In this document: one piece after another, positions 1 through 57,008 of the stretch
Numbering within the stretch: the stretch's first letter is position 1
Layout: each line of letters opens with the position of its first letter
Notes under the pieces: generated by a model
The model's database searches: none
Seen by the model: the letters and a program-made list of their open reading frames with translations, nothing else
Told to the model about the DNA's origin: nothing
Position numbers and translations under genes: made by a program
DNA from: Hydractinia symbiolongicarpus
Lineage: Eukaryota > Cnidaria > Hydrozoa > Anthoathecata > Hydractiniidae
DNA: 64,000 nucleotides
Direction: 5' to 3'
Assembly (NCBI RefSeq): GCF_029227915.1
Contig: NC_079886.1
Span: 21,490,501 to 21,554,500 of the forward strand

Positions 1-3000
1 ACAAAACAGGTACTACTGTTTGCTGTTGCAATTGGATTGGAAGGTTAATGATGCCATATTGTACCTGATTTAATTGAGTGGCATCGTTTCCAAGGGATAA
101 TGGGGGGCATGCAGGCGGATTTTGAATTTGTGACACAGTATTTTGAGTGTTTAAAGAAGGTGATATAACCGCTCCATTTCCTTGTTCTGTAGTTTGTATT
201 GGTGGTGGTATCAAATCAGAAGGAGGAATAACTTGATTGTTATCACTTATGATTGTACTAGGAAGTGATGCTTGTTTATTGAGTTGCACAGATTGTGAAG
301 AGATTGGAGGATTTTGTGTGACAATAATTGGATTTGCTGTCGCCTCTAAGATATTACCAGCGCTAACATGGACGTTCGGATTAACTACTGGTGTATTTTT
401 TACGGGGGCTGTAACACCAACTGGGTTTATAGATCCTTGTCGCAGTTTTCTTGTTTTGTGACCAAATTTTCTGTTAAAAGGTTTACGCCTATTTTTTCTA
501 GATTGATCAACTTCACTGTAGATATTTTTATTATTAGCTCGAGAATTGATGGAAGCTAGTGATTTTTCTTTTTCCTTTTGTCCCATTGTCTCTTCCCCTA
601 ATTTTTCTTTGTAGCCATTCATGTCTTCTTTGACGTTTCCTTCTGGAGAAGCATTTTCATCTTCTAATAAGTCACTTGGAATATTTTTGTCATCTAGTGT
701 TTCTAAAGAATCTTGCGACGTTTGTGACTGCATCAGCATGGAATTTTCTCTTGATGTATCAGTTACACTCTCTTTATCATCTTCATAAGTAGATAGATCG
801 TCGAATTGATTTTCTGTTTTGGTCGTGACTAAAACGGCAATGTAGAACATTGTTTGATAGAAGCCTGTTTCAAATGTATGTAAAAGGCGAACTCAAGTTA
901 GATAAATATATTAATGTTCGATGTGTTTTTGGAACATTATTTCGCAGTTTGAATAAGTGGGGCTAATTAGATATTGGTACCATTGATCTAGTCTTGATAA
1001 GCTGGACTTGCGCTTAGTAAGACCAATTTTTTGATCTTATCAACTAAAAAATATTGCTTAAATAGGACTTGAGTGCAATGACTTCAAAGTGTAGAAGACA
1101 AAAAAGAAGGATTTTGAATGCATTGCATTAAAAAAATTGTGAAGCATTGTACTATGTTTGTGTGTTGATCGACTGTAGAACGTTGGCAGGGTCCTCCTCA
1201 CAAGTTGAATTCTGATATACGCAAACAAAATCAATAAGTGGGACATTTTTACCTCTTAAGTTCCAATTAATCAAGTCTTAAAATTGATCAGAAACAAACT
1301 GCTGCACATTGATGGAAAGAAGACTAGAGTAAAATCATTTTTTGATGCTGGAGAATTTTTGTTCATGGGTGGTTGACTTAACAAATGATAGCCTTTGATA
1401 ACTTGCTTAATTTCAAACTAAATTGGGAAGTTCATCAGGGAAATGAAAAACAACAAATCTTACGAAAGAATGGGGAAATCCAAAGAAAAAACAATAATAA
1501 CGATGATGGTTAATACGTAAAACAGTTAACTTAGCTGTTAGAAGAAGAAAAAAAGTAATCGGAGTTTAAATTCTATTTTTTCTGAACTGGTGTCAAAAGC
1601 TATGCTTACACTGTTTTCTCCTCTCATCCTAAATTGTAGACAAGATCTAACGCCTTTTTTCCGCTAAGCGGAATAATTTTGAGCATTTAGATTGGTTGGC
1701 AGAAATTTCCGTTGTATATTTCATTTCTATTTTTGCGACGGCTCAGTAGACGTTTCTAGCCGTTCACATTTTTTTCACCTTACACAGAATAGTTCGCGTA
1801 GTAGAGATAATTTTCTACTGTAATTTTTTGCGGAGAAACATTAAACCAGAATCTGCAATGCTTTGTAAAAAGGGTGCCGTACCCTGAAGTATATTCTGAA
1901 AGCATTTCTTTAGCCTTAGGATACACAAGAATAATAATTGGAGCAACTTAAGCCTTGATATGGCTATAGATATTAATATAATGTTCATTTTTGTTTTTTC
2001 AAATGCACACTAAAAGATAATATATTCATTTTGTCGTCCAGCGAATTTTCTATACGCGCTTTTTTATAAAAATATAGTTCATAAGAATATTTAACTGGGG
2101 TTCAGGATAAAATGTGTTATGCTTTCTAATAATGTGTTAGACATTCTTCTAACAGCGCATAATTTATTTTTGCAGTGTAGAATCCAAAAAAGAATAATGT
2201 TTCCCGAAACCTTTGAAATCGGGAAACACCGCATACTTTACAGAACATTTCGACGCTGTCTTAAACCTTCTTAGTGGTATCCTCATAAGTCCTCTTCTTA
2301 ATTCAGCGAGGGAAAAAAAGTATATTTTACAAACTTCACGACGACAAACAAATTATTCAAAACACTTTTTATAAGTTCACTCGTTCACGTGCCTATCATT
2401 TTAGATGCTAACTGAGAGGTTGCGTGAAAAGGAGACAGTTTTATGCAAAAACGCGATGGTTTTGCGGATATGGGTCATATATAATCACTATACAAGCTTA
2501 TTTTGAGAATTTCCTGATTCTTCTAAAGCTTTACCTCGTAATTTTAGATATTTTTTTACTTTATTTCCCACTAAAAGTATTCATTACCTCTTTGTAGATG
2601 TAGTATAGGTCCTTTTATTCTATCATCCTTCCTAAAGTTCACATAGTTCGTATCGACCAAATTTTCTCCTTTACTATGAAAGTCTCCAGGTTTAAAATTA
2701 AATCGTTTCTCTGAGTCACCTATCTTTGTAGTACACCAACCAACATTGACAAAAGCCGACACATACAAAAATTTAGCGTCCTCTCTGCTAATTTTTGTGT
2801 CGTAAAACTTAACAGAATATGAGGAATGCTTGTTTCGTTGCGGATCGTGAATAACGTCTTGTCCTAATCTCACTGCATCTTCATTATTTAAAGCTGCTTT
2901 GTATAACATTACGACAAGACAGGATCCTGCTGGTAGTTGGTAAGGGAAGCGCTTGCTGTAAGTAATACCACCTTCCACTCTTATTCCAGTTAAATCCACC

Positions 3001-3083
3001 ATTGATTTAGCTGTGTCCGCAAGTAGGATCAAGGCTGCAACAAGTAGAGTGCATTTTGCGATAATTTCGTGTCGTCTAAACAT
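1..3083 (-). CDS. G0: secreted protein, head domain plus acidic linker and Pro/Gln-rich region (3' end outside window)
   Basis: Two exons are visible. Exon 1 (2588-3083) starts at the ATG at 3083, chosen because it begins a signal peptide (MFRRHEIIAKCTLLVAALIL); an in-frame upstream ATG at 3149 would add 22 residues without a secretory character. The head domain has GSCLVV and VNVGWC motifs. The donor GTAATG leaves phase 1. Exon 2 (1-828) follows an acceptor TTTTAG, also phase 1, and the joined codon is Val. It encodes an acidic Ser/Asp/Glu-rich stretch, a basic stretch (NRRKPFNRKFGHKTRKLR), then a Pro/Gln/Asn-rich region with no stop up to the window edge. The first ~435 bases of exon 2 (about 394-828) match the linker exon repeated in G1-G3; the Pro/Gln part is unique here. 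The head exon is nearly identical in G1, G2 and G3. Function is unknown; secretion is inferred. The product continues off the left edge. Confidence 0.72.
829..2587 (-). other. G0 intron 1
   Basis: AT-rich sequence between the G0 head exon and linker exon, with a GTAATG donor and a TTTTAG acceptor on the minus strand. Positions 829-1762 recur downstream of every linker exon in the repeated units. From 1763 the sequence belongs to the larger repeated block. I see no coding signal; short ORFs on both strands are not kept in the other copies. Confidence 0.6.
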
Positions 3084-3329
3084 TCTGTGTTGACATGTCT
3101 TCCGTAGAAATAAGTTTTGTAGAATTTTATTGAAAGAATTTATTTGCAATCAGTTGAGTTATTATTCCTCGTGAGAATGTTTGTATGACGTGATAGTAAT
3201 GTATTTTCTGCTTCGCTGTGTTTTTATTCTTCGCTTGACATGATTTGAAAGCACAAAAAGTTATTCAGCACAACCCGGAAGACACTGTGTAAAATGAAAC
3301 CGCGGGTTTCCATTCTTTCGCTCTCTTTT

Positions 3330-55828: not shown

Positions 55829-55833
55829 TTATT
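55828..55833 (-). terminator. Polyadenylation signal overlapping the G5 stop codon
   Basis: AATAAA on the minus strand; its TAA is the G5 stop codon. If used, the 3' untranslated region would be very short. I did not find a clearly better AATAAA just downstream. Confidence 0.35.
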
Positions 55834-57008
55834 TTCCAGACTGGCAACAAACACCGGTGCAATGAGCTGGATTACATTGGTTATGACAATGCACCGGACA
55901 TAATTTTGTAGTAGGTTGAACTGGTGTTTTCTTTGGTGATGTTGCTGGTTTGGTAATCAGTGTAATTGGCCTTGTTGCTGTGATAACTGGTTTAGTAGCG
56001 GTCACTTTCGTTGATGAAATGACAGGCTCAGTTGTTGTGGTTTCACCTGCGGTGGTTGGTGGTTCAGTGGTGACAGCGGCTGTTGATGTAGATTCTGTTG
56101 ATGTTGATTCTGTTGTTGTTGTTGTTGTTGATGTTGTTGTTGGCACACACTCATCAGTTTCTAAAAAAAAAAAACAGACTATGTACATTAAGAAAACAAC
56201 ATAAAAATCATCCTGTAAGTGTAGCATGTAAGTTTGGATTGACGTAGCAGTAGCTCATGTGTTATGCACAGACCACGATAGACTTCTACGCAAATCCCTT
56301 TACATAATAACCTAATAATTTGTTGTAAAATCAGCAAACATCATATAAATCATGCAGAAAAACATGGTAAGCATCCTAGTAACCTTTTTCTGAATGTCCT
56401 ATAAATGACGATGGTTAATCGAATGACGGAGGAAAATTAATTAAACGTTTAAATAGCCTTTAGCAAAGTTAGAAAACAAATAATAGTACACTTCTCTCCT
56501 TTGATTTCTATAGCTAGTAGAATGCAATGATCTAACAGATTGCAAATACAAGCAACTCTAAACATATTACTACTAAATGCATACCTGATAATAGCTCTAA
56601 CTTTGGTCCAAGAAATTTTGAAGCAACGATTTCCCACGTCTTTTTCTCAATTCTTGTTATTTTAGATTTAAAGCTGGCATGTTTTCCGGCTGGTGCCAAC
56701 TTGCAGAAACCTATGTTAACTTTTGCTTCCAATGCCAATAAGGGGTGACTGCTGTAAATCTTACTTGGTAATGGTATTTCATATGTCAACTTTGATTTTG
56801 ACGGTTCCCAAATGTATTCGCTTTTGATTTTTTTGTAATTCTCTTCTCCTTGATCCTCAAATGTGGTAATGACCATACAGGATCCTTCTCTTGCTCTGAA
56901 GGGGAAACAATATGGATAACTCAGCTCACCAATTAATGTTGTACCATTAAGATTCAATGATGCCATTAACTGTGGAACTACCATGCCAATCAAAAAAAGG
57001 AGAATCAT
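55829..57008 (-). CDS. G5: minimal family member, signal peptide + head domain + Thr-rich stalk + Cys tail
   Basis: Two exons. Exon 1 (56585-57008) starts at the ATG opening a signal peptide (MILLFLIGMVVPQLMAS). The head domain has REGSCMVI and VNIGFC, matching the two conserved Cys positions in the other members. Its donor is CAG-GTATG, phase 1. Exon 2 (55829-56160) follows a T-run and AG, phase 1; the joined codon is Glu. It encodes ETDECVP, a Thr/Ser-rich mucin-like stalk, then CPVHCHNQCNPAHCTGVCC and QSGK-stop. The product is about 251 residues. The tail spacing is C-x3-C-x3-C-x4-C-x3-CC, as in G1-G4. Intervening exons are not needed, and none was seen in the 424-base intron. It lies outside the repeated blocks, so it may approximate the ancestral architecture. 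Confidence 0.82.

Follow-up and report, generated by a model that had tools for sequence, protein, structure and literature searches.

What kind of protein is encoded by a cluster of genes whose first and last exons stay constant in kind while the exons between them come in varying number? The question is raised by a 64,000-nucleotide stretch of the hydroid Hydractinia symbiolongicarpus (contig C12, NC_079886.1, 21490501-21554500; hereafter the window), for which an initial annotation had proposed a tandem array of six secreted mosaic genes in a diversity-generating arrangement. Our analysis suggests that this array probably represents a young tandem branch within a hydroid family whose members are secreted, disulphide-cross-linked structural proteins of nematocyst type. 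The plan shared by the family would open with an exon that encodes a signal-peptide-like start and a pilotin-like head domain, followed by a phase-1 intron and a last exon carrying a cysteine-rich domain (CRD). Exons, phases, sequence kinship and the CRD can be read directly from the DNA; the fold of the head comes from a structural model.

The window was scanned in six frames and compared with itself, and exons were placed by splice sites and by blastn with the exons of gene 2. All genes of the array lie on the minus strand; they are numbered from left to right, with the start of each at its higher coordinate. Head exons occupy positions 2588-3083, 18753-19248, 29652-30147, 41591-42086, 53305-53749 and 56585-57008 (genes 1 to 6), their lower coordinates agreeing exactly with the ends given in the initial annotation. 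Five tail exons follow on the same strand, at 5329-5564, 21874-22109, 32291-32526, 44311-44546 and 55829-56160 (genes 2 to 6). Likewise, the number of F5/8 type C (F5/8C) modules was found to be 4, 2, 2, 1 and 0 in genes 2 to 6, and gene 1 crosses the left window edge. At both ends the kind of exon is constant, and the modules that separate them are phase 1-1. Some of the earlier claims needed qualification. All six head exons are open and have a phase-1 donor, and they fall into three subtypes, the second in gene 5 and the third in gene 6; the heads of these two genes share only 34% and 23% identity with that of gene 2. The subtypes are not resolved in a head tree of 16 rows, since 8 of its 13 inner branches are open. 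Phase 1 holds for the end of the head exon (H), for exons A and D1 and for the start of the tail exon (E), but the intron between D2 and D3 is in phase 0 and the phase of exon T is unsure. The cluster also extends to the left of the window, where the remainder of gene 1 and one further gene (gene 0) were found.

Judged by its cysteine pattern, the tail appears to be a minicollagen CRD with altered spacing. A six-frame scan of the window found the pattern once per tail exon and nowhere else, five occurrences in all. The published CRD reads C-x3-C-x3-C-x3-C-x3-CC, with x3 where the window tails have x4 (PMC4863159). Spacing variants do exist, as the N-terminal CRD peptide of CPP-1 is described with x5 in one gap (PMC6910907). 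The long A exon of gene 0 ends in yet another form, C-x3-C-x3-C-x2-C-x3-CC. Gly-X-Y collagen stretches were not seen by eye in the proteins predicted for genes 0, 2, 5 and 6, and a PDB sequence search with the tail returned four matches at chance level (best E 1). Sweet Tooth (SWT), a candidate for the tail, was ruled out; SWT proteins are described as 370-390 residues long with two domains that are C-type-lectin-like (PMC3531485).

For the head, a signal-peptide-like start was recognized by eye in each of the six window exons. Its modelled structure resembles the fold of the YscW/AspS pilotins (PDB 5wec, 2yjl). When five paralogue heads were compared with the YscW profile (PF09619), two scored 27.2 and 35.8 bits and passed the cut-off, and three remained below it with 17.6, 19.8 and 21.6 bits. 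Sequence searches with the heads gave 0 matches in the PDB and, for three heads, 0 families in NCBIfam; nothing matched in the phage collection. Among prokaryote contigs, one paralogue head gave 97 pattern matches, of which tblastn confirmed 0 as relatives; a bacterial donor was therefore not found by close-relative search.

The gene-5 head, searched against its own genome, matched 38 places at E ≤1. All 31 matches with E ≤0.001 lie on C12; C3 and C9 contribute four weak matches (E 0.03-0.8). The 31 comprise 7 in this cluster, 14 in an array with a 1,589-bp period, and 10 others, 7 of which (L016, L017, L018, L024, L026, L043 and L044) have a same-strand CRD exon within 1.5 kb downstream. Of 2000 versions obtained by shuffling the 10 loci, 0 contained the CRD pattern; the flanks, 70 kb in all, gave two matches, and these are the two CRDs of a neighbouring gene. 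The paralogues carry canonical x3 CRDs, which are accompanied by the x4 variant in 5 of the 7 CRD-bearing loci and in the array gene. In all 10 heads read (nine paralogous loci and one array copy, L017 excluded), moreover, the top-ranked donor candidate has phase 1. From the CRD exons and phase-1 donors across the paralogues it follows that the order head, intron, CRD exon looks like the ground state of the family. The second array (C12:16975337-16995994) holds 14 head exons at 13 equal spacings of exactly 1,589 bp; here the head exon itself serves as the module, in phase 1-1, and downstream lies an open frame of 740 codons with three CRDs, which would belong to the same gene. Exons between the ends hence look to have been amplified at least twice in the family.

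Protein searches with the heads recovered four unnamed proteins from assemblies of public reads: P0002 in one search, and P0003-P0005 in another that gave 4 matches among 926 candidates. In P0005, which is spliced, a head of gene-5 type (138 of 148 columns identical) runs directly into the tail exon (73 of 77), and the junction is that of the donor and acceptor predicted from the window DNA. Head and tail thus share one transcript, and the idea that they belong to separate genes, which would have undone the initial annotation, finds no support. P0004 has a head identical to that of P0005 and continues into the intron. That the middle modules are also spliced to head and tail is a prediction from splice sites and phases. 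Three NCBI proteins of H. symbiolongicarpus (P0006-P0008, the second representing five member sequences) correspond to fragments of the array. They are model predictions, among which P0006 uses the predicted joins L-D1, D1-D2, D2-D3 and D3-T. In these models the array is divided into genes that are partial or hold a single module, and the names given to them are coagulation factor V-like and LDL receptor-related protein 2-like; automatic annotation has hence split it into unrelated-looking pieces.

In genes 2-4 the module between the ends consists of exon A, which is acidic, rich in dibasic sites, 477 nucleotides long and phase 1-1, followed by a complete F5/8C domain on three exons: D1 (225 nucleotides, phase 1-1), D2 (98 nucleotides, phase 1-0) and D3 (223 nucleotides, phase 0-1). 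The whole module is therefore 1-1 and fits between a head that ends, and a tail that begins, in phase 1. Gene 2 has four such modules, at 15233-17117 (A 17117-16641, D1 16280-16056, D2 15632-15535, D3 15455-15233), 12375-14259, 9517-11401 and 6659-8543. Its exon T (6370-6570) has cysteines that look TIL-like by eye, gives no Pfam match alone, and has weak donor candidates, its 3' end being placed at 6380, at 6370 or as terminal; the tail exon encodes the x4 CRD and a stop. Gene 2 is open over 1,674 codons in 19 predicted exons. Some of the other members carry lesions. In gene 3, the first module (26049-27933) has an in-frame stop in D1 (27096-26872); the second (23230-25082) and exon T (22951-23141) follow. 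Gene 4 carries in-frame stops in A and D1 of module 1 (37985-39878) and an 8-nucleotide deletion in D3 of module 2 (35193-37011), the last D3 exon being interrupted by an LDLa-coding stretch (33682-35192) before exon T (33342-33532). In gene 5, open over 838 codons, A is replaced by a long exon L (47048-48136; weak acceptor) with a Thr-rich stretch, LDLa, TIL and VWC, followed by one F5/8C domain (45640-46687; D1 46687-46463, D2 46039-45942, D3 45862-45640) and exon T (45361-45551). The spliced gene 5 protein scores 63.0 bits for F5/8C (PF00754; cut-off 28.2), 63.1 for LDLa in three stretches, 33.2 for VWC and 26.5 for TIL, all exceeding the cut-off. Gene 6 (251 codons) has no module between its head and a tail exon with a Thr-rich stretch, a CRD variant and a stop. 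At the left, gene 1 has after its head a long form of exon A (1-828), which runs on leftward and beyond position 396 is unlike the hybrid A of genes 2-4; the gene continues outside the window with a fused exon, L, D, T and E. Gene 0 has a head and then a single long A exon, with 775 open codons before a stop. The architecture had not been recognized as a named family; its parts can now be described as a variant CRD-type tail, a YscW/AspS-like head and a centre of F5/8C, LDLa, TIL and VWC.

How the array arose can still be read in part. Self-comparison of the window gave 39 matches of at least 400 nucleotides, introns included, that are 94-99.8% identical; such copies stem from recent segmental duplication. 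In the exons of the four gene 2 modules, only two sites vary, both synonymous. In 28 pairwise comparisons of eight modules, exons had 0-9 differences per at most 1,023 sites and introns 0-7 per at most 862 (for example 5/1023 and 4/862). Similar differences in exons and introns point to youth and indicate neither diversifying selection nor constraint. In the fused exon of gene 1, an A of gene-0 type (…PASVN) is followed in frame by the final residues of a head exon of gene-5 type (LRGKDD…), and a 2-nucleotide deletion relative to gene 0 lies upstream of the join. Genes 2-4 have a hybrid exon in which A runs in frame into the end of L, two points that lie ~2.1 kb apart in gene 1. The hybrid unit recurs at 2,858 bp, with its junctions in a CAAA-rich stretch of intron. 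These junctions are present in the DNA, and the events behind them would have followed in this order: a tandem duplication whose ends fell within an A exon of gene-0 type and a head exon of gene-5 type, a deletion fusing A to L in frame, and amplification of the resulting 2,858-bp module. Tandem repeats of 30 bp with unequal copy numbers lie 3' of the tail exons (4506-4684, 20677-20792, 31548-31726, 43488-43666).

The first intron of gene 5 holds a palindrome (48615-53029), outside the protein, with two 2,189-nucleotide arms that are 100% complementary and 37 nucleotides apart. Each arm has a reverse-transcriptase-like open reading frame (RVT_1 25.9 bits, below the cut-off of 29.6) whose C-terminus appears GIY-YIG-like by eye. 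The palindrome probably represents two head-to-head Penelope-like elements inserted in a (TA)n stretch; in gene 1 the (TA)n site is present without it. Around the array, three features lie on the plus strand: an open frame at about -28480 to -26732 relative to the window (L009) with two canonical minicollagen-type CRDs and, by eye, no collagen repeat; exons at about -14378 to -11887 (L007) that by eye resemble a BCCT-type transporter; and an open frame at 59451-59768 that by eye resembles the first exon of an extended-synaptotagmin gene. A scan of the window for transfer RNA genes found none.

CRDs are described as disulphide cross-linkers in nematocyst proteins with varying middles, namely minicollagens, CPP-1, Cnidoin and NOWA (PMC4863159, PMC6910907, PMC4321713, PMC10014300). 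As far as these descriptions go, minicollagens, CPP-1 and Cnidoin are, like the window genes, secreted, with a terminal six-cysteine domain and a middle that differs (collagen, polyproline or silk-like). In contrast, the window genes have the CRD only at the C-terminus, with x3-x3-x4-x3 spacing, a pilotin-like N-terminus, and a middle of F5/8C or LDLa/TIL/VWC in which no collagen repeat was seen. NOWA, which forms disulphide-linked oligomers, likewise combines a domain of carbohydrate-binding type with C-terminal minicollagen CRDs, but it is described with a C-type lectin and eight CRDs (PMC10014300), where the window genes have F5/8C, one CRD and a pilotin-like head; lectin_C was absent from the Pfam families listed, and each tail has one CRD. 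With YscW/AspS pilotins the head shares the fold of its model and above-cut-off YscW scores in two paralogues. Those proteins, however, are bacterial lipoproteins of secretion systems, and here the head belongs to a eukaryotic secreted multidomain protein for which no secretin partner is known. A YscW- or pilotin-like head paired with CRDs was not found described in the open-access texts searched.

Several results weigh against a nematocyst-type family with modular long forms. P0005, the sole spliced protein, is without any middle module, and among the proteins recovered no transcript connects modules with head or tail. The tail departs from the published spacing in 5 of 5 window tails, and three of the ten other paralogous loci (L025, L027 and L042) have no CRD within 1.5 kb downstream. 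For the head, the gene 2 type scores 15.6 bits for YscW against a cut-off of 22.6, no YscW match was found for the heads of genes 5 and 6 in the Pfam profile search, and the fold was modelled with middling confidence (pLDDT 70.8; five models range 51-71). Genes 1, 3 and 4 are broken. Finally, the NCBI models P0006 and P0008 terminate in exon T with a stop. Together with the weak donors after T and the plain head-tail structure of P0005, this last point would fit a gene proper of head and tail, with the F5/8C modules in separate or alternatively ended transcripts that stop in T. We regard this as possible but on balance doubtful. In genes 2 and 5 the stretch from T to E is free of AATAAA signals, and two occur within ~220 nucleotides after E of gene 2; no separate signal-peptide exon was seen for L or for A; and the phases of H, A, D3 and E are all compatible, while the NCBI models are predictions. 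The broken genes, the similarity of exonic and intronic differences and the two-exon form of the only spliced protein could also reflect a mostly neutral, short-lived array, in which DNA instability has produced the long chimeric genes as a by-product and function is confined to the two-exon members. This has an appreciable but minor chance of being true, as against it stand the open frames of gene 2 and gene 5, two exon fusions that are both in frame, and module amplification in a second gene of the family.

F5/8C, LDLa, TIL and VWC domains are frequent in extracellular matrix, and the products might be cross-linked material outside nematocysts, such as perisarc, glue or mesoglea. A Nematostella collagen is described with CRDs and a long collagen part (PMC12549020), but the CRD is best known as a nematocyst cross-linker (PMC4863159, PMC6910907), and we consider such a location unlikely. 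That some of the copies are artefacts of assembly appears more improbable still. The longer units differ by ~0.4-2.3% mismatches, close to the heterozygosity of 1.33% reported for H. symbiolongicarpus (PMC11067881), so that the assembly may miscount copies, and the perfectly complementary palindrome arms point the same way; yet private lesions, unequal module numbers and different junctions would not simply result from joining two alleles. A locus for recognition or immunity that generates diversity would, like Sp185/333 (SpTransformer) of sea urchins as far as its description goes, show clustered similar genes, short repeats and presence or absence of elements, and the array has clustered, near-identical genes with constant ends, variable middles and short repeats at its junctions. 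Sp185/333 genes, however, are small two-exon immune-response genes with their elements inside the second exon, and the window genes depart from this plan with modules that are whole exons and, in gene 2, a total of 19 predicted exons. Nothing in the array points to recognition, and the tails suggest structural cross-linking; such a function thus seems very improbable. Diversity generation in sequence, as initially proposed, is not supported because the module copies are almost identical and several genes (3 and 4, and 1 beyond the window) carry disabling changes. This reading is hence weakened for sequence, and it may still hold for copy number and architecture, with one genome examined.

The more probable reading remains a branch of nematocyst-type structural proteins. 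In this cluster, the intron between head and tail hosts the acidic linker, the LDLa/TIL/VWC exon, the three-exon F5/8C domain and the TIL-like exon. A short form arises by splicing head to tail, as seen in one protein, and long forms would arise by inclusion of modules. After secretion, the CRD would form intermolecular disulphides in analogy to minicollagens, NOWA, CPP-1 and Cnidoin, and the middle modules would provide binding sites, their number setting reach and valency. By this analogy, the likeliest location would be the nematocyst capsule, matrix or tubule. A link to cnidocytes through a miR-2022 target in Hydractinia was dropped, as the target is an arylsulfatase.

More tentatively, and with some doubt on our part, the locus may be regarded as an evolvable block copolymer. 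A hydroid family of CRD cross-linkers on one chromosome would have a head derived from, or convergent on, a bacterial pilotin fold, its phase-1 intron would act as a docking site for modules, and module number, varying between individuals, would tune the disulphide-polymerised capsule material. If this is true, unequal exchange would change module number and thereby reach, stickiness or mechanics. The array shows a CRD-type family caught gaining and losing whole domains. With its breakpoints still readable, it offers a chance to study how new multidomain secreted proteins arise.

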